From contig NZ_QLZR01000002.1 in NCBI RefSeq assembly GCF_003289955.1, positions 496,001 through 560,000 of the forward strand: 64,000 nucleotides of DNA, given 5' to 3'. Of the stretch, positions 791 through 59,242 are shown one piece after another (the stretch's first letter is position 1; each line of letters opens with the position of its first letter). The DNA comes from Planococcus halotolerans (GTDB lineage: Bacteria; Bacillota; Bacilli; Bacillales_A; Planococcaceae). Made by a program: the position numbers and the translations under genes. Below the pieces are notes generated by a model. The model saw nothing but the letters and a program-made list of their open reading frames with translations. It had not been told where the DNA came from and ran no database searches.

Positions 791-1138
791 TTAACCTCCT
801 CCTTTCAAAGTTGTAAGCATAGTCCGCTAACCATAACTATATCTAAATTCCAGCCGTTTTTCTACATATAACTGAAATTTACCGATAAAAGCTATGAATA
901 TAGTGAGTTAGCCTCAAATTGCACTCACCCTATCATACATCACTGCAGTGCTATTTTTAATAATGAAAAATAATAGTTTTTGAACAGTTTGTGAAGGCTC
1001 AGAGTTATATGTCCAAATATCGAAAGTTTCCGCTATTGCTGATTTTCCGTTGTATTTTAGGCCGACTTTCGCTATTATCGAGTATGCAGGTTATGGACGG
1101 ATAAATGTATTTCCATATAGAAAAAGTAGGTGGCATTC
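791..1138. other. Divergent ctaB-ctaA intergenic region
   Basis: About 350 AT-rich bases between the two divergent heme genes. It must hold both promoters. I could not find a convincing sigma-A pair with good spacing for either gene, and no obvious long palindrome. In B. subtilis this region is a target of the ResD aerobic/anaerobic regulator; whether that holds here cannot be read from the sequence. Confidence 0.4.
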
Positions 1139-2050
1139 TTGCAGCAAAATAAATATATAAAATGGTTCGCAGTGGCAGCATCGGTCGGAATGCTTCTTAT
1201 TCTGTTAGGCGGTGCGCTCGTCACCAAAACTGAAAGCGGAATGGGTTGCGGCCGTCACTGGCCTGGATGTAATGGCCAATTGATACCCGATGTCATAACG
1301 GCAGAAGTGCTGATTGAATTTTCCCATCGCCTGGTTACAGGAGCTGTCAGTTTCTTCATCCTGATTCTCGCAATATGGGCCTGGAGAAAGTTCGGCCATA
1401 TCCGCGAGACGAAATTCTTGGCTATCACTTCTGTTTTCTTCCTTGTTCTTCAAGCATTGATCGGAGCCGCGCAGGTTCTATGGGGCCAAGGTGATTTTAT
1501 CCTCGCCTTGCATTTCGGCATCTCCCTCATTTCATTTGCATCTGTGTTATTGCTGACGCTTCTCGTTTTTGAAGTGGACCGGAAATTCGACACAGAAAAA
1601 TTGAAGATCGGCAGAACAATGAAGTTTCACACAATCGGCGTAACTTTATATTCTTATATCGTCATTTACACCGGTGCGCTCGTACGGCATACGAACTCCA
1701 GCTTGATATGTTCTGATTGGCCGTTGTGCCGCAACGATTCTTTTGCACTTCCTTCCAATATGTATGAATGGGTGCAAATGGGGCATCGCGTCGCAGCCGG
1801 TTTGATCGTCATCTGGATTGGCGTCATCATGTGGCACGCAATCAAGCATTATAAAGACCAACGGGCAATTTACTGGGGCTGGATCATCGCTTTCACAATT
1901 GTAATGATGCAAGCTACGACCGGAATGCTGGTTGTGCTGACAAAATTAAATCTTGCTGTTGCTTTATTGCATTCCCTTTTCATCACTTTATTATTCGGGC
2001 TTTTGTGTTATATGGTACTTCTTGTTTCACGAAGTTATACGAAATCTTAA
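1139..2050 (+). CDS. ctaA: Heme A synthase
   Basis: Membrane enzyme that converts heme O to heme A for aa3-type cytochrome oxidase. It has about eight membrane segments in two four-helix halves. Heme-ligand histidines are visible in SHRLVTG and LHFG of the first half and in GHRVAAG and LHSLF of the second. Both family cysteine pairs are present: CGRHWPGC near residue 35 and CSDWPLC in the second half. I prefer the TTG start at 1139, because AGGTGG at 1128-1133 sits five bases upstream; a GTG at 1130 is in frame but overlaps that site. Length from this start is 303 residues, normal for the family. Confidence 0.93.
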   Translation: MQQNKYIKWFAVAASVGMLLILLGGALVTKTESGMGCGRHWPGCNGQLIPDVITAEVLIEFSHRLVTGAVSFFILILAIWAWRKFGHIRETKFLAITSVFFLVLQALIGAAQVLWGQGDFILALHFGISLISFASVLLLTLLVFEVDRKFDTEKLKIGRTMKFHTIGVTLYSYIVIYTGALVRHTNSSLICSDWPLCRNDSFALPSNMYEWVQMGHRVAAGLIVIWIGVIMWHAIKHYKDQRAIYWGWIIAFTIVMMQATTGMLVVLTKLNLAVALLHSLFITLLFGLLCYMVLLVSRSYTKS

Positions 2051-2292
2051 GAAAAGCGCAAGCGCCTGTATAGATTCGAAAGGCATAAGCCACTCTGGCG
2101 AAGCGGTGTGTTTTCAGCCGCACAGCCTCGAAAAGCGAAAGGGCCTGTTCAGCTCTGACAAGCGTAAGCCGAAACAGCGGAGCGGCGATCTTTGCCGCAT
2201 AGCTGTTTCGGCTTACGTCCCGAAGAGCTAGGCACTGGAGACTAGACAAGAGTGGCTTATGACCCGAGAATCTGGGCGCTGAAGTCTGGACA
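2051..2292. repeat. Long palindromic intergenic repeat, one copy nested inside another
   Basis: The 3' gap between convergent ctaA and pycA starts with AAAAGCGCAAGCGCC and closes with GGCGCTGAAGTCTGGACA. These ends are partly complementary (GCGCC against GGCGC), so the whole can fold into a long hairpin. Members of the same family lie at 16064-16451, 53936-54382 and 58806-59290. Bases 2128-2248 form a second complete copy inserted into the outer one. I see no protein-coding capacity; short reading frames through it are by-products of the palindrome. Confidence 0.85.
2128..2248. repeat. Inner copy of the palindromic repeat, inserted in the outer copy
   Basis: Unit of 121 bases, beginning TCGAAAAGCGAAAGGGCC and ending GGAGACTAGACA. 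Its interior folds as a strong stem: AAGCGTAAGCCGAAACAG pairs with CTGTTTCGGCTTACG around a smaller CGGC...GCCG hairpin. Removing it restores the junction CAGCC-AGAGTGGCTTATGACCCG. That junction is found uninterrupted in the copy near 59000, and with one base change near 54090. Confidence 0.75.
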
Positions 2293-2350
2293 GTGCAACA
2301 CTCTTTTTAAGAACCTTCTTATTAAAAAAAGTTATACTTTTTAACCATAA

Positions 2351-2388
2351 AAAACAGCTGGCGCAAATTTGCGCCAGCTGTTTTTTTA
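2351..2388. terminator. Bidirectional terminator between ctaA and pycA
   Basis: Perfect inverted repeat AAACAGCTGGCGCAAA with TTTGCGCCAGCTGTTT, flanked by A and T runs. It can end ctaA transcription on the plus strand and pycA transcription on the minus strand. The T run overlaps the pycA stop codon. Confidence 0.9.
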
Positions 2389-5300
2389 ATTTCTTTCCAT
2401 TTCAATCAATAAGTCTCCAGTGGAAATACCGTCTGCGGCATTCACATGGATTTCTGTAATTGTTCCATCAAAAGGAGCTTGCACTGTCGTTTCCATTTTC
2501 ATGGCTTCTGTTACAAGCATGTGGTCGCCGCGTTTTACTTTAGCGCCTTTCTCTGCAACGACTTTCAACACAGTTCCCGGCATTGTTGCTGCAATATGGC
2601 TTTCCTGCGTCGGATCAGCCTTCGGTTTCGCAGCACTGTCGGTTTCCACTGTCATATCCGTGATGCTTACTTCACGCGGCTGGCCATTCAACTCGAAGTA
2701 AATCGAGCGGGTGCCGTCTTTTTGCGGTTCCCCAATTGACACCAACCTGATCATCAAGGTCTTCCCTTTTTGGATTTCGACTTCAATTTCTTCCCCAAGC
2801 CTCATTCCATAGAGGAAAGTCAGTGTGTCGAGAACCGAAACGTCGCCGAATGTTTTATTGGTTAATGAATATTCATCGAAAACTTTAGGATACAATGCAT
2901 ATGCCAGAACTTCATGGCTTGTAACCGGACGATCCAATTTTTCATACAACGTTTTGCTGATTTCTTCAAAATCAGCCGGCTCGAGCAACTCTCCAGGGCG
3001 AACCGTAATCGGTTTGCGCTCTTTCAAAATCACTTTTTGCAATTCTTCAGGGAATCCGCCATGCGGCTGTCCGATATAACCTTCGAAGAATTCGATGACC
3101 GACTCAGGGAAATCGATTGTTTCACCGCGAGTGATGACCGTTTCCTCATCCAGATCATTCTGTACCATGAACAGCGCCATATCTCCTACGACTTTCGATG
3201 AAGGTGTCACTTTTACAACATCACCGAACAGCATGTTGACTCGGGAATACATTTCCTTAACATTTTCCCAGCGCATCCCAAGTCCAACCGCTTTCGCTTG
3301 CTGCTGCAGATTGCTGTATTGGCCGCCTGGCATTTCGTGGACGTAGATTTCTGAATGTGGACTGTTCATACCGCTTTCGAAATCACTGTAGTATTTACGG
3401 ACATCTTCCCAGTAATGCGAAAGTTTTTCTTGAGCCTGAATATCCATCCGGACTTCACGGCCGCTTCCGTTCATCGCGTAATACAGGGAATTCGAGCTTG
3501 GCTGTGAAGTAAGCCCTGCCATGGAACCAAGTGCAGTATCGACGATATCGACCCCTGCCTGGATGGCTTTCGAATACATATAAATACCGTTGCCGCTCGT
3601 ATCATGTGTATGGAGGTGGATCGGCATCGATACCGTATCTTTCAGTTCGGACACCAGACGGTAAGCCGCTTCCGGTTTGAGTAGACCAGCCATATCTTTA
3701 ATGGCCAGAATATGTGCGCCTGAAGCTTCCAGCTCTTTTGCCATATCCTTATAATATTGGACGGTGTATTTATCACGGCTCGGATCCAGTATATCTCCTG
3801 TGTAGCAAATTGCCGCTTCTGCAATTTTGCCGCTCTGCCTTACCTCATCGATGGCCACTTCCATGCCTTTGATCCAGTTAAGGCTGTCAAAAATACGGAA
3901 AACATCTATTCCCGCTTCTCCGGATTTACGAACAAAATCACGGATTACATTATCCGGATAGTTTTTATAACCTACTGCATTCGCTCCGCGGAAAAGCATC
4001 TGGAACAAGACATTCGGCATCTGTTCACGCAATTTGATCAAACGCTGCCAAGGATCTTCTTTCAGGAAACGGTAAGAGACATCAAATGTCGCCCCTCCCC
4101 ACATCTCCATTGAAAACAGATCTTTCTGCAAGTGTGCCGTCTCTTTTGCCACAGCAAACATATCATACGAACGAACGCGCGTTGCCAATAAAGACTGGTG
4201 GGCATCCCTGAAAGTCGTATCCGTTAGAAGGACATCTTCCTGCTCGTGTATCCACTTAGCCAGCCCGTCAGCTCCTCTTTCATCAAAAATCTGCTTGGTA
4301 CCTGGAGGTAAAGTTGTGCTCAAATCAATTTCCGGTTTTCTCGGCGCTGCGTGGATTGGTTTCTTTTTCTTTTCAATTCCCGGGAATCCATTAACCGTAA
4401 CATTGCCGATATAGCTCAAAAGCTTGGTTCCACGGTCTTGTCGGACTGGGAACAAAAACAGCTCCGGCGTTGAATCGATAAAACTTGTATCAAAATCACC
4501 TTTGATAAAACTCGGGTGCTTAACTACATTCTCCAAAAATGGAATATTTGTTTTTATACCGCGGATCCGGAATTCCTGTAAGTTGCGGTCCATCTTGCCA
4601 GCCGCTTCCTTGAACGTCAGCGCCCAAGTCGATAATTTCACCAATAGAGAGTCATAATATGGGGAAATTACTGCTCCCTGGAAGGCATTACCGGTATCCA
4701 GACGAACACCGAAACCGCCACCCGAACGATATACCATCAATCTTCCCGCATCCGGCATAAAGTCATTGACCGGATCTTCCGTTGTAACGCGTGATTGGAT
4801 TGCAAAACCGAATAACGGAATTTTATCCTGTGAAGGAATGGAAATCACATCTCCATGAAGGTCATGTCCCCTAGCGATATGGATTTGGGAATGGACGATA
4901 TCAATTCCGGTAATCATTTCCGTAATGGTATGCTCCACTTGAATACGCGGGTTTACTTCTATGAAGTAGAATTCATCATTTGATACAAGGAATTCGACTG
5001 TCCCTGCATTTATGTAATCAATATTTTTCATCAGCTTCACTGCTGCTTCACAGATTTCATTGCGCAGTTCGTTGCTGATTGAATTTGAAGGTGCTATCTC
5101 CACCACTTTTTGGTGGCGGCGCTGAATCGAGCAGTCGCGTTCATAAAGGTGTACGATATTGCCGTATTGGTCACCCAGAATTTGGACTTCGATATGCTTC
5201 GGTTTTTCAACAAATTTTTCTACATACATTTCATCTGAACCGAAAGCCGCTTTTGCTTCAGACTTCGCTCTTTCATACGCTGATGCCAGTTCTTCCTCTT

Positions 5301-5826
5301 TACGGACAATCCGCATACCGCGGCCGCCGCCTCCAAGAGACGCTTTGATCATTAACGGGAAGCCGGCTGTCTTAGCGAATTCTTCCACTTCCTGAAGAGA
5401 TTCCACTGGTCCATCAGTTCCGGGGATTACCGGGATTCCAGCAGCAATCGCTTGTGAACGCGCTTTCACTTTATCGCCGAACATATCCAGATGCGCTGAA
5501 GTTGGTCCGATAAACAGGACGCCTTCCTCTTCACATCTGCGGGCAAAATGAACATTCTCGGATAAAAAACCGTAGCCAGGATGGATTGCATCAGTATCCG
5601 TGTCTTTTGCGATACGGATGATGTCTTCAATATCCAGGTACGCGTCAATCGGTTTCTTTCCTTTTCCTACCAAATACGATTCGTCTGCTTTATAACGATG
5701 ATATGAACCGCTGTCTTCTTGTGAATAAATTGCAACTGTTGGAATTTTCAGTTCTGTACAGGCGCGGAAAACCCTAATAGCGATTTCTCCGCGGTTTGCC
5801 ACCAAAATCTTATTGATCTTTTTCAC
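2386..5826 (-). CDS. pycA: Pyruvate carboxylase
   Basis: Biotin enzyme that carboxylates pyruvate to oxaloacetate, refilling the TCA cycle. Domain order: biotin carboxylase (about residues 1-450, starting KKINKILVANRGEIAIR, with the glycine-rich loop SLGGGGRGMR), carboxyltransferase (about 535-830, with LTDTTFRDAHQSLLATR), and the C-terminal biotinyl domain with biotin attachment motif EAMKMETT. I start at GTG 5826, with AAAGGGTG nine bases upstream. The frame stays open upstream to 5883, but family members begin at this KKINK block. The resulting 1146 residues match the usual length. ftsW ends 16 bases upstream, so the two are probably co-transcribed, as in B. subtilis. Confidence 0.97.
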   Translation of the reverse strand: MKKINKILVANRGEIAIRVFRACTELKIPTVAIYSQEDSGSYHRYKADESYLVGKGKKPIDAYLDIEDIIRIAKDTDTDAIHPGYGFLSENVHFARRCEEEGVLFIGPTSAHLDMFGDKVKARSQAIAAGIPVIPGTDGPVESLQEVEEFAKTAGFPLMIKASLGGGGRGMRIVRKEEELASAYERAKSEAKAAFGSDEMYVEKFVEKPKHIEVQILGDQYGNIVHLYERDCSIQRRHQKVVEIAPSNSISNELRNEICEAAVKLMKNIDYINAGTVEFLVSNDEFYFIEVNPRIQVEHTITEMITGIDIVHSQIHIARGHDLHGDVISIPSQDKIPLFGFAIQSRVTTEDPVNDFMPDAGRLMVYRSGGGFGVRLDTGNAFQGAVISPYYDSLLVKLSTWALTFKEAAGKMDRNLQEFRIRGIKTNIPFLENVVKHPSFIKGDFDTSFIDSTPELFLFPVRQDRGTKLLSYIGNVTVNGFPGIEKKKKPIHAAPRKPEIDLSTTLPPGTKQIFDERGADGLAKWIHEQEDVLLTDTTFRDAHQSLLATRVRSYDMFAVAKETAHLQKDLFSMEMWGGATFDVSYRFLKEDPWQRLIKLREQMPNVLFQMLFRGANAVGYKNYPDNVIRDFVRKSGEAGIDVFRIFDSLNWIKGMEVAIDEVRQSGKIAEAAICYTGDILDPSRDKYTVQYYKDMAKELEASGAHILAIKDMAGLLKPEAAYRLVSELKDTVSMPIHLHTHDTSGNGIYMYSKAIQAGVDIVDTALGSMAGLTSQPSSNSLYYAMNGSGREVRMDIQAQEKLSHYWEDVRKYYSDFESGMNSPHSEIYVHEMPGGQYSNLQQQAKAVGLGMRWENVKEMYSRVNMLFGDVVKVTPSSKVVGDMALFMVQNDLDEETVITRGETIDFPESVIEFFEGYIGQPHGGFPEELQKVILKERKPITVRPGELLEPADFEEISKTLYEKLDRPVTSHEVLAYALYPKVFDEYSLTNKTFGDVSVLDTLTFLYGMRLGEEIEVEIQKGKTLMIRLVSIGEPQKDGTRSIYFELNGQPREVSITDMTVETDSAAKPKADPTQESHIAATMPGTVLKVVAEKGAKVKRGDHMLVTEAMKMETTVQAPFDGTITEIHVNAADGISTGDLLIEMERN

Positions 5827-5842
5827 AATGCAGCACACCCTT

Positions 5843-7009
5843 TTATTTTTTTGTTTTTTCATATTTGTGGAACATGGAGACATTCATTAATACTCCCATA
5901 CCTAACGATAACAAAATTACGGAAGTTCCGCCATAACTTATAAATGGAAGGGTGACCCCTGTTAAAGGAATAAGCCCAGATAATCCACCCAGATTGACGA
6001 AAGTCTGTATGCCAATCATGCTCGCTATACCCGCTGACAGCATACGCGCCAAAGGATCTTTCGTGGTCATAGCAATCGACAGTCCTTTTAATACAATAAA
6101 CCCAAGACCCCCGATTACAAAGAGCACTCCCAGGATACCAAGCTCTTCAGCTACAATGGACATGATAAAATCCGTATGGGGTTCCGGCAGATACCCTAAT
6201 TTCTGGATTGACTGTCCCAGCCCCAAACCACTGATCCCACCAGATCCAATAGCCAGATAACCATTGACGATTTGCATGCCAAAACCCAGTTCATCCACAA
6301 AGGGATTTAAAAATGCTTCAAGACGGCCAAGCCTTTTTTCCGTCAAAATCATATCCTGCGCAAAAATTAGAAAAGGAACAATGAAAATGGCAGCAGCCGC
6401 TGCTACAATCCCCGCCAACTTGAGGAACATACCAAACCGAATTCCGCTGGCAGCCATGACACTGAGCCCTACCAATGCAATGATTCCCATCGAACCAATG
6501 TCCGGTTCACGAAAAACAAGGAACAATGCAAATGCCAGAACGATAACCGGTGGAATAATTGATTCATTCAATTGATTGATGGTCCCTTTTTTATATTTAT
6601 TTGAAAATACACCAGACAGATAAAAGATTAACCCTACTTTCGCAATTTCCGAAGGCTGGATGCTGGCAAAACCGATGTAAATCCAACTTTGTGCCCCACC
6701 GCCTGCATAACCGATGAAATGCACCAGAATCAGGCCGCTGAAAACGACAAAGAGAATCGACATCATCACCCATTTCTTGCTGAAATGCTTATAAGGGAAA
6801 ATGGCACCGAGCACAAAGGCCGGCAAAGCAAGCGCTAAATTTATAACCTGCTGATTGAAGAAGTGGTTTGGCTCCCAGCCATACCTATAGACGGACCAGG
6901 CCATGCTTGCACTGTAAATCATGACCAAGCCGAAGAGGGTTAACGCGAGATAGGTAAAAAGCAGAGGATAATCAAAATTAGCGGCGTACCGCTTTATGTA
7001 CTGTTTCAT
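5843..7009 (-). CDS. ftsW: Septal peptidoglycan polymerase FtsW
   Basis: SEDS-family glycosyltransferase that polymerises lipid II at the division septum with a partner class B PBP. About ten membrane segments are evident. The family signatures are present: YSASMAWS near the N-terminus, LVFREPDIGSMG in the middle, and PLTGVTLPFISYGGTS near the C-terminus. The start chosen is ATG 7009, seven bases after GAGG; a TTG two codons earlier is less well placed. It yields 388 residues. It lies between ylaN and pycA, a conserved Bacillales arrangement. Confidence 0.95.
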   Translation of the reverse strand: MKQYIKRYAANFDYPLLFTYLALTLFGLVMIYSASMAWSVYRYGWEPNHFFNQQVINLALALPAFVLGAIFPYKHFSKKWVMMSILFVVFSGLILVHFIGYAGGGAQSWIYIGFASIQPSEIAKVGLIFYLSGVFSNKYKKGTINQLNESIIPPVIVLAFALFLVFREPDIGSMGIIALVGLSVMAASGIRFGMFLKLAGIVAAAAAIFIVPFLIFAQDMILTEKRLGRLEAFLNPFVDELGFGMQIVNGYLAIGSGGISGLGLGQSIQKLGYLPEPHTDFIMSIVAEELGILGVLFVIGGLGFIVLKGLSIAMTTKDPLARMLSAGIASMIGIQTFVNLGGLSGLIPLTGVTLPFISYGGTSVILLSLGMGVLMNVSMFHKYEKTKK

Positions 7010-16063: not shown

Positions 16064-16327
16064 GAAAAGCGCAAGCGCCAGTTTAGCCCCGAAAAGCGAC
16101 GGCACCGGTTTAGCTCTGAAAAGCATAAGACGGATCAGCGTAGTGGCTTTGGCCACGCAGACTTGAAAAGCGGAAACGGCCGTTCAGCTCCGACAGGCTT
16201 AAGATGAGCTTTCGAAGCGGCGTTCTTTGCCGCACAGGAAGAACAGCTTAAGTCCGAGGAGTTGGCCGTTGGAGTCTAGACTTGAGCTGGCTTATGACTC
16301 GAAGAGCTGGGTCGCCGGAGTCTGGAC
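16064..16327. repeat. Palindromic repeat with nested inner copy
   Basis: Outer unit from GAAAAGCGCAAGCGCC to GTCGCCGGAGTCTGGAC in the convergent gap after speA. It carries an inner unit at about 16164-16282. Left end GTTTAGCCCCGAAAAGCG and right end GAAGAGCTGGGTCGCCGG partly pair. No coding capacity seen. Confidence 0.8.
16164..16282. repeat. Inner nested copy of the palindromic repeat
   Basis: Starts TGAAAAGCGGAAACGGCC and ends GTTGGAGTCTAGACT. Its interior pairs GGCTTAAG with CTTAAGTC around a GCGGCGTTCTTTGCCGC hairpin. It is inserted shortly before the outer TGGCTTATGACTCG block, the same internal location as the inner copy at 2128-2248. Confidence 0.7.
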
Positions 16328-16330
16328 TAA

Positions 16331-16451
16331 AGAAAAGCGCAAGCGCCCGTTTAGCCCCGAAAAGCGCTGGAAGCCTTGACGATAATGGCGTTCTTTGCCA
16401 TTAACGGTAAGGCTGAAGCGACTCGAGGGGCTGGGTCGCCGGAGTCTGGAC
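16331..16451. repeat. Simple (non-nested) palindromic repeat unit
   Basis: 121 bases, from AGAAAAGCGCAAGCGCCCG to GGAGTCTGGAC. AGCCCC near the left pairs with GGGGCT near the right. An interior stem AAGCCTTGAC.../...GGTAAGGCT carries TGGCGTTCTTTGCCA at its tip. It looks like the basic unit of the family. Confidence 0.8.
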
Positions 16452-16512
16452 ACGGAAACACTTTTCCCTAAGAATCTTCATACTAAAAAAGTTATACTTT
16501 CTTGTCCATTAA

Positions 16513-53935: not shown

Positions 53936-54137
53936 AGAAAAGAAATGCGACTACGCCCGTTAAGCTCTGACAGGCAAGAGATGGAACAAATGGAATTTGG
54001 TCCATCTCTTTGCGACGAAGCTAGCGTAGCGATGCAGGAGCAATATGGTTTTAGACGATTTGGCGAAGCGGCATCATTTCAGCCGCACAGCCAAAGTGGC
54101 TTATGACCCGAAGAGCTGGGCCGTAGGAGTCTGGACA
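53936..54137. repeat. Palindromic repeat unit carrying a second short element
   Basis: Unit 1 of three tandem members of the intergenic family. Inside it lies AAGAGATGG...CCATCTCTT, a hairpin, followed by the core TTTGCGACGAAGC...GATGCAGGAGCA (54009-54042). The right end GGCTTATGACCCGAAGAGCT with AGTCTGGACA matches other members. The copy at 58806-59047 carries the same insertion. Confidence 0.8.
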
Positions 54138-54140
54138 CTA

Positions 54141-54258
54141 GAAAAGCGACAGCGACCGTTAAGCTCTGAAAGGCATAAGACAGAACAGCAGAGTGGCCTT
54201 AGCCATGGCAGCTGGGCTGGCTTATGACCCGAAGAGCTGGGCCGCGGGAGTCTGGACA
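54141..54258. repeat. Palindromic repeat unit 2
   Basis: Starts GAAAAGCGACAGCGACCG and ends GCGGGAGTCTGGACA. The interior reads GTGGCCTTAGCCATGGCAGCTGGGCTGGCTTATG in two overlapping stems and is an empty site for the nested type of insertion seen near 16 kb. Confidence 0.75.
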
Positions 54259-54260
54259 AT

Positions 54261-54382
54261 AGAAAAGCGACCGCGCCAGTTAAGTCCCGACAAGCGCTGG
54301 AGGGTTTGACCTGCATGGCGTTTTTTGCCATGAAGGACAAATCCGAAGCGACTCGAGGGATTGGGCCGTGGGAGTCTGGACA
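54261..54382. repeat. Palindromic repeat unit 3
   Basis: Starts AGAAAAGCGACCGCGCC and ends GGGAGTCTGGACA, with an interior ATGGCGTTTTTTGCCAT hairpin and GCGACTCGAGGGATTGGG near the right. Beyond it, 54383-54489 holds no recognisable feature and leads into the downstream end of the next gene. Confidence 0.75.
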
Positions 54383-58805: not shown

Positions 58806-59047
58806 AAAGAAAAGCGGAAGTGCCTGTTGAGCTCTGACAGGCAAGAGATGGAACAAATGGAATTTGGTCCATCTCTTTGCGACGAAGCTAGCGCAGCGAT
58901 GCAACGCATTTTCATGTCTCGAAGCTAGCGATAGCGATGCAGAGACAGGAGCAATATGGTTTTAGACGATCTGGCGAAGCGGCGTGTTTTCAGCCGCACA
59001 GCCAGAGTGGCTTATGACCCGAAGAGCTAGGCGCTGGAGTCTGGACA
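58806..59047. repeat. Palindromic repeat with second-type insertion
   Basis: From GAAAAGCGGAAGTGCC to GGCGCTGGAGTCTGGACA. It contains the AGAGATGG...CCATCTCT hairpin, the core TTTGCGACGAAGCTAGCGCAGCGATGC (58876-58902), then a partial second core with an AGAGACAGGAGCA variant. It also holds the uninterrupted CAGCCAGAGTGGCTTATGA, the empty form of the site filled at 2128-2248. Confidence 0.8.
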
Positions 59048-59052
59048 GTGTT

Positions 59053-59242
59053 AGAAAAGCGGAAGCGCCCGTTTAGCCCCGACAAGCAATAGATGGCTCA
59101 AAGGTAATTTGAGCCATCTATTTGCGACGAAGCGCGCAGCGATGCAGGAGCAGCAATAAGTAGTTATAAATTGTAATGGCCTTCTTTGCCATTAACGGTA
59201 ATGCTGAAGCGACTCGAGGGGCTGGGCGCTGGAGTCTGGACA
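59053..59242. repeat. Palindromic repeat unit
   Basis: From AGAAAAGCGGAAGCGCCCG to GGCGCTGGAGTCTGGACA. The interior has AATAGATGGCTCAA...TTGAGCCATCTATT, the core 59121-59152, and ATGGCCTTCTTTGCCAT. Confidence 0.8.

Follow-up and report, generated by a model that had tools for sequence, protein, structure and literature searches.

A non-coding hairpin repeat of Planococcus halotolerans that nests at a single position within its own copies

How small gene-less bacterial repeats spread is largely an open question. A composite repeat directly downstream of a presumed heme A synthase gene of Planococcus halotolerans gives the question a concrete form: how did one copy of a hairpin repeat come to hold a complete second copy of itself, and can the unit move? 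The locus was examined in a window of 64,000 nucleotides (positions 496001–560000 of contig C10) from a genome of 3.62 Mb in 17 contigs. The original prediction, made from the letters of this window, described an outer unit at 2051–2292 carrying a complete inner unit, and took filled and empty versions of one site in the same genome as direct evidence that the unit moves.

The outer unit begins with GAAAAGCGCAAGCGCC at 2051 and finishes with ..GAAGTCTGGACA at 2292, while the inner unit extends from GAAAAGCGAAAGGGCC at 2130 to ..GGAGACTAGACA at 2248 (Table 1). The nested structure was therefore confirmed, with the outer and inner ends located where they had been placed and with family matches elsewhere in the genome, and removal of 2128–2248 does give the expected CAGCC-AGAGTGGCTT. 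Judged from clean pairs at other loci, the insertion point of the composite lies after CAG (2125), with an ambiguity of 2 bases. The two end motifs were found 16 and 11 times in the window, compared with shuffle means of 3.0 and 0.9 and with none of 100 shuffles reaching either count, and all 242 bases of the composite are matched again in the genome, so the nested repeat is more than a chance arrangement. The segment 2048–2292 folds into one long hairpin with a z score of −8.37, and the inner unit alone gave a z score of −5.96. The TAA stop codon of the upstream gene (2048–2050) directly abuts the start of the element; we take this gene to be ctaA-like from its protein sequence, and the convergent gene on the other side is presumably pycA-like. 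A search of the window against Rfam gave no match at the gathering score; around the locus there were 33 weak matches at E values up to 5, all below the gathering score and mostly on the side of a terminator near 2350. The unit has no gene of its own and contains no transposase, as had been noted.

Table 1. Positions of the composite repeat, its neighbouring genes and the other copies of the repeat in the window.
Feature	Position	Strand	Remarks
ctaA-like heme A synthase gene (presumed)	1130..2050	+	ORF list; locus retrieved across Planococcaceae by protein
Outer unit, left half: GAAAAGCGCAAGCGCC ... apical hairpin ... CCGCACAG	2051..2125	+	Aligns with empty units of the genome
4-nt prefix CCTC belonging to the inner unit	2126..2129	+	Nested junctions compared; boundary uncertain to within 2 nt
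Inner unit, counted as subfamily I, 119 bp: GAAAAGCGAAAGGGCC ... CTGGAGACTAGACA	2130..2248	+	
Outer unit, right half: AGAGTGGCTTATGACCC ... GGGCGCTGAAGTCTGGACA	2249..2292	+	
AT-rich right tail of the element	2293..2346	+	Common to many copies
pycA-like pyruvate carboxylase gene (presumed), convergent	2386..5883	-	ORF list
Second composite, inner unit of subfamily II at 16165-16282	16091..16328	+	Orthologous outer unit of Y74 empty
Single unit in tandem after the second composite, then tail	16332..16452	+	
Three-unit array, first unit with module B	53942..54382	+	
Unit empty at the nesting site but with modules B and C (~58843-58953)	58809..59047	+	
Next array unit, with B-type module	59054..59242	+	

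The repeat belongs to a family of which P. halotolerans carries well over 100 non-coding hairpin copies. The right-end motif, allowing one mismatch, was found 159 times in the genome compared with 3 times for its reversed control pattern, and the left-end motif, allowing two mismatches, 182 times compared with 25. The stretches of this genome examined were those around the first 100 places of each end motif together with the composite matches, and the copies are therefore at least those counted. A unit-sized query matched all 24 genus genomes searched, P. halotolerans included, and none of 16 genomes from other families of the same class; the unit plus tail had no match in plasmid and phage collections. 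Single units are mostly 112–122 bp. Their consensus stem-loop contains 34 predicted pairs, 25 of which have a double change that keeps the pair in an alignment of 62 P. halotolerans units, a double change being scored when at least one sequence differs on both sides. Tandem arrays with spacers of a few nucleotides are common in the family, and many arrays (L011, L018, L059, L060 and others) end, after their last unit, in a conserved AT-rich tail of about 55–60 nt that is missing together with the element at empty sites.

At least 110 clusters were present in the P. halotolerans stretches examined. For 59 of the 110 the left end lies between −60 and +30 nt of a same-strand stop codon, in 53 of these within 6 nt, compared with a mean of 10.25 and a maximum of 17 for random positions in 20 repeats, the stop codons counted being those of open frames of at least 100 codons. 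The repeats near stops run in the direction of the upstream gene, and a further 21 clusters are situated immediately upstream of an open frame that diverges from them. In 72 of 110 clusters the strand of the element is the one that is C-rich in that region, which, as the clusters are not independent, is a weak hint of a replication-strand preference. Of 100 pairs of neighbouring clusters, 63 share an orientation, compared with a mean of 51.6 and a maximum of 70 after shuffling.

The comparison within the window does not itself demonstrate movement. Of the two uninterrupted copies that had been proposed as the empty state, the one at 58809–59047 is indeed empty at the nesting site, but it is a paralogue with a different inserted module and not a second version of the same site; the copy near 54090, in the unit ending at 54137, reads CAGCCAAAGTGG, which is one base off, and is likewise a paralogue containing a different inserted module. 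The filled and empty versions in the window are paralogous, and are not direct evidence from one site. The module concerned, module B (AAGAGATGG...TTTGCGACGAAGCTAGCGCAGCGATGCAGGAGCA), is a second repeat that lies inside many units at another place than the nested units, and module C (...TGTCTCGAAGCTAGCG...GATGCAGAGACA) is a third repeat located inside module B. In the P. halotolerans stretches examined the core of module B was found 42 times inside unit clusters, 39 of them in the same orientation, and 27 times beyond the cluster limits used. An orthologous pair was also found for module B, with P. halotolerans L040 filled and the corresponding site of Planomicrobium sp. Y74 empty.

Comparison with relatives gave the before-and-after states that the window does not hold. 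The nearest named relatives by the ctaA gene were Planomicrobium sp. Y74 (98%), P. okeanokoites (96%) and Planococcus sp. MER TA 32b (95%), in a search from which records very near P. halotolerans itself were possibly left out. Among the 31 distinct ctaA loci listed, the element is present in Y74 alone, and the sites of P. okeanokoites and MER TA 32b are empty; in P. okeanokoites the tail (2293–2346) is missing along with the element. The Y74 locus has kept the inner unit and the right half of the outer unit while the left 79 bp of the outer unit are gone, the pattern expected if an element that was already nested had undergone a deletion between its two GAAAAGCG repeats. Because Y74 retains a remnant of the nested element, the nesting at 2051 is older than the split from Y74.

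Filled and empty pairs had been proposed as something to seek in related strains, where their absence would have counted against the idea, and they were found in relatives that are other species, at loci other than the composite. In the first pair Y74 L198 is filled and the orthologous P. halotolerans L008 is empty, with an outer identity of 1.000 and the insert between CCGCACAG and CCAAAGTGG. The second pair consists of adjacent units of Y74 L201 with identical outer sequences (1.000), of which the second is filled, with the insert between GCCGCGCAG and CTGGGCTGG. In the third pair P. okeanokoites L213 is filled and P. halotolerans L015 is empty, with junctions GGCCGCGCAG and TTGGACTGG and flanks that are 87–88% identical. 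In each of these three pairs a unit of 116–119 bp with a 4-nt prefix in front of it has been placed after CAG, with no target duplication and no base lost, so that the target-site duplication suggested as a further check is absent from the clean nested pairs. For whole elements a weak target-site duplication signal was obtained among 50 loosely selected cases (p 0.0055) and was not significant among 27 strictly selected ones (p 0.12–0.41). A fourth pair is formed by the second composite of the window, which is empty in Y74, where the right junction is 2 nt off a clean insertion and the surrounding array is also rearranged. The orthologous and adjacent-copy pairs support the mobility of the unit that had been proposed, and insertion into existing units has been both repeated and recent.

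Movement is not confined to existing units, since the bare unit L026 of P. halotolerans occupies a site that has no unit in Y74, MER TA 32b or P. okeanokoites. The interior of this unit is like subfamily I (defined below) and its end signature is not, and its ends are not clean, as the adjacent host bases also differ between the genomes. P. halotolerans also has two whole elements, tail included, that Y74 lacks. When 26 P. halotolerans clusters were compared with the Y74 stretches, 5 had no match in the stretches examined. Of the 21 collinear sites, 19 also hold family DNA in Y74, and a comparison by eye showed 16 of these 19 to differ in unit number, type or nesting. The sites of the repeat appear from these alignments to be stable while their contents are not.

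The position of the nested unit was examined with an open scan that allowed offsets of 10–118 on either strand. This gave 28 nestings (13 in P. halotolerans, 10 in Y74, 3 in MER TA 32b and 2 in P. okeanokoites), all at an offset of 70–79, more narrowly 74–79, and none inverted, in the same stretches as a first geometric search that had presupposed the orientation and rough position. Thirteen of the 28, comprising 8 of the 10 from Y74 and all 5 from MER TA 32b and P. okeanokoites, lie in stretches picked by a match to the composite, which favours this geometry; the 13 from P. halotolerans and 2 from long Y74 stretches lie in stretches that were not picked by geometry. At least three orthologous filled pairs are counted twice (L054/L199, L075/L196 and L077/L205). 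Read by eye on the consensus structure, an internal loop underlies the apical hairpin, and the insertion point falls a single base pair beneath that loop on its 3' side. Among the matches listed for 15 genomes of the genus, the composite was mostly covered in P. halotolerans (G000), G005 (probably the Y74 genome), G009 and G011; in G003 the matches were end fragments. G009 also has a copy nested at the same site, and G011 one whose ends have decayed, giving nested copies so far in P. halotolerans, Y74, P. okeanokoites, MER TA 32b, G009 and G011 and traces in G003.

A further 10 inner units without a detected outer left end bring the total to 38. All 38 belong to two subfamilies, I (29) and II (9), compared with only 18 of 115 free units (6 of I and 12 of II); the subfamily call is an 8-base signature set after the nested units were seen, and the 115 free units include a Y74 unit in L193 that has lost its outer right half. 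Of the 28 filled outer units, 5 fall in subfamily II, none in I and 23 in neither, and they are of several hairpin types.

The junctions of the inner units carry a further regularity. In 34 of 37 inner units the 4-nt prefix follows directly on an AG. The prefixes found with subfamily I are TCTC, TCCC, TCTA, CCTC and CCCC, those found with II are ACTT, ACTC and CTTC, and ACAC occurs with some of both, so that the prefix tracks mainly the inner subfamily and not the outer type. Allowing wobble, AG plus prefix can form 5 or 6 of the 6 possible pairs with the right end GAG(A/T)CT in 29 of 37 inner units compared with 1 of 115 free units; the other eight inner units have fewer than 5 pairs. Shuffling of prefixes among the inner units gave a mean of 4.82 pairs compared with 5.03 observed (p 0.0005), and as the shuffled mean is only slightly lower, the pairing is mostly shared consensus with a smaller part of covariation. 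The right junction is less regular: in copies other than the clean pairs it varies by a base or two, and in many outer units of type GCCGCACAG (P. halotolerans L015, L054, L075 and others) it is one C short of the empty units.

The explanation that we favour, with modest confidence, is that this is a high-copy non-coding mobile hairpin repeat of Planococcus whose nested form is made by discrete insertion at a fixed position. A unit of subfamily I or II with its short prefix, usually of 4 nt, would insert into another unit at one fixed place, immediately 3' of an AG in the 3' arm below the internal loop, and in the same orientation as the host unit. The arrays would afterwards be altered by recombination between the conserved ends, as in Y74 at the window locus, where the left arm of the outer unit is gone. 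Confidence in insertion over gene conversion is held at this level because the stretches of the relatives were picked by the composite and because many right junctions are one base short.

Gene conversion or homologous recombination is the strongest of the alternatives, though we regard it as unlikely. On this view there was a single original nesting event or a small number of them, and recombination through the homologous outer arms later converted empty units to filled ones without any transposition. A constant position in all nestings would be expected equally from conversion, and the churn of units at conserved sites, with 16 of the 19 shared Y74 sites differing, agrees with it. The filled outer units are also somewhat clustered on a tree of 143 outer and free units, 28 of them filled: at least 20 changes between filled and empty were needed, fewer than in any of 300 shuffles (mean 25.8, minimum 22). 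Read with caution, since the units recombine, this count would mean some shared ancestry of the filled outers but many separate events; the closest sequence to a filled outer unit was an empty unit in 14 cases and a filled unit in 12, with 2 ties. Conversion does not readily explain why the filled outers span several hairpin types, or why L026 is a bare unit where three relatives have none. In the pairs L198/L008 and L201, moreover, the filled and empty outer arms match exactly as far as the junction, the empty unit being an ortholog in the first case and a neighbour in the second, with no donor outer variant. These unchanged arms in pairs 1 and 2 make conversion less likely, though it may have contributed.

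An error of replication, in which template switching at a fork or single-strand annealing at the hairpins copies the unit without any repeat-specific enzyme, is considered improbable. In its favour, forks could stall at hairpins of 120 nt, templated synthesis would produce the observed complementarity between the prefix and the right end of its own unit, and arrays and direct-repeat deletions differ between sister genomes. The recurrent ends, the single target position in 28 of 28 nestings and the restriction to two subfamilies are nevertheless more precise than such errors would be expected to be. Local tandem duplication with drift that merely looks nested, the alternative named in the original prediction, agrees with the abundance of tandem arrays in the family but is contradicted by the filled and empty pairs with intact outer arms, by inner units of subfamily I or II within outers of which 23 of 28 are neither, and by the order left–left–right–right, and is very improbable.

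For the favoured discrete insertion, the unit may move as a folded single strand with an IS200/IS605-like or REP-like enzyme acting in trans. This is suggested because insertion is oriented, occurs without target-site duplication, and takes place beside a hairpin with AG plus prefix complementary to GAG(A/T)CT. The transposase of RAYT/REP or IS200/IS605 type that the original prediction proposed to look for was not found tied to the repeats. P. halotolerans has two RAYT-like Y1 transposase genes, L080 (G000 C10:843172) and L081 (G000 C1:37090), for both of which the best match was NF047646 at 72 and 54 bits, with a cut-off of 80. Next to the L080 gene are a presumed comM-like gene and a presumed transposase frame of IS3 type. 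No unit was present in the roughly 3.3-kb stretches surrounding the two Y1 genes, which contained a single left-end-like match with 4 mismatches. Y1 genes were present in 10 of the 15 genus genomes searched, P. halotolerans included, one of them (G006) as a fragment only; they were undetected in the other five (G001, G003, with an assembly of 350 contigs, G004, G007 and G009), and all 15 carry repeats. G009 has a nested copy and no detected Y1 gene. The pattern across these assemblies would argue against a strict present need for a Y1 transposase. The RAYT genes were rejected as drivers, as they have no flanking units and do not co-occur with the repeats.

A more speculative version, which we consider doubtful, is that the two subfamilies are specialised site-specific parasites of their own family. 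In this case a single strand would insert beside its cognate internal loop, guided by the pairing of AG and prefix, without a RAYT and through a transposition system that is yet to be described.

The closest known systems share some of these properties. IS200/IS605 elements move as single strands and leave no target-site duplication. They and their non-autonomous derivatives resemble the Planococcus repeat in oriented insertion 3' of a short motif, in hairpins and, at the clean pairs, in the absence of target-site duplication and in precise empty sites; oriented insertion 3' of a fixed motif was found for the nested copies only (AG in 34 of 37, orientation in 28 of 28). They differ in that the Planococcus target lies inside a unit of the same family and no enzyme is linked to it.

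REP and REPIN sequences mobilised by RAYTs are also high-copy, gene-less intergenic hairpins that form tandem arrays, and RAYT-like genes are likewise present in P. halotolerans. In the available part of one source TnpA-REP cuts single-stranded DNA at CT, and in one system also CA, beside the hairpin, with the choice of cleavage site proposed to depend on complementarity with GTAG bases, AG for CT (PMC8266576). A 5' tail complementary to the 3' end is noted for excised REPINs in the available part of another (PMC3116915). The Planococcus units differ in being about 120 bp with an AT-rich tail, in not surrounding Y1 genes, and in being present where Y1 genes are undetected. No GTAG or CGTC tag was conserved before the units: by eye, varied AT-rich host DNA lies ahead of the free units and AG plus prefix ahead of the nested ones. 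Self-nesting at a fixed position was not found in the available parts of the REP/RAYT literature (PMC8266576, PMC3116915). Membership of the REP/RAYT group would therefore not be granted on present comparisons, given the absence of a GTAG tag and of a flanking RAYT and the 5 of 15 genus genomes in which Y1 was undetected.

The bcr1/bcr repeats of the Bacillus cereus group are similar as structured, MITE-like intergenic repeats of Gram-positive bacteria; the sections seen of two sources describe bcr repeats as often forming parts of UTRs (PMC3446304) and list Bcr1 at about 150–170 bp (PMC2267715). They belong to another group of organisms and were compared by description only, and those sections of PMC3446304 and PMC2267715 do not mention self-nesting. 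BOX elements of Streptococcus pneumoniae are modular, stem-loop-forming repeats for which the available text reports 36 of 58 gene overlaps at the 3' end and an internal module number that varies between strains (PMC3049150). That variation concerns the number of boxB modules between boxA and boxC as far as this text describes it, whereas in Planococcus a whole unit enters another unit at a single position; the word 'nested' is absent from the main text of PMC3049150. The Correia/NEMIS, ERIC and RUP MITEs are also small and non-autonomous and have no proteins of their own, but they are listed, in the portion available, with terminal inverted repeats and target-site duplications (PMC2229807), while the Planococcus repeat has no evident terminal inverted repeat and no demonstrated target-site duplication. 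By eye no clear inverted repeat was seen between the left end GAAAAGCG and the right tail end CTTATCC. The SDR elements of Nostoc are a possible parallel.

The family is a small gene-less mobile repeat that stands out for self-nesting at a fixed position. A search of mostly non-subscription journals found no earlier description of the Planococcus repeat or of fixed-site self-nesting. With before-and-after pairs, a single target position and two inserting subfamilies, the ends, target and substrate of this repeat are known nearly to the base, and the repeat-in-repeat structures of such genomes reflect a recurring process and not assembly noise.

Two other kinds of sequence were observed in the same stretches. 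Minimal units of about 40 bp that keep the two ends only were found at L040:2978-3016, L033:14245-14285 and Y74 L185, and one site has a full unit in P. halotolerans and a minimal unit in Y74. A possible other, longer intergenic repeat, sharing ...GCAAAACAGC..., lies beside some arrays (Y74 L179 and L192; P. halotolerans L037).
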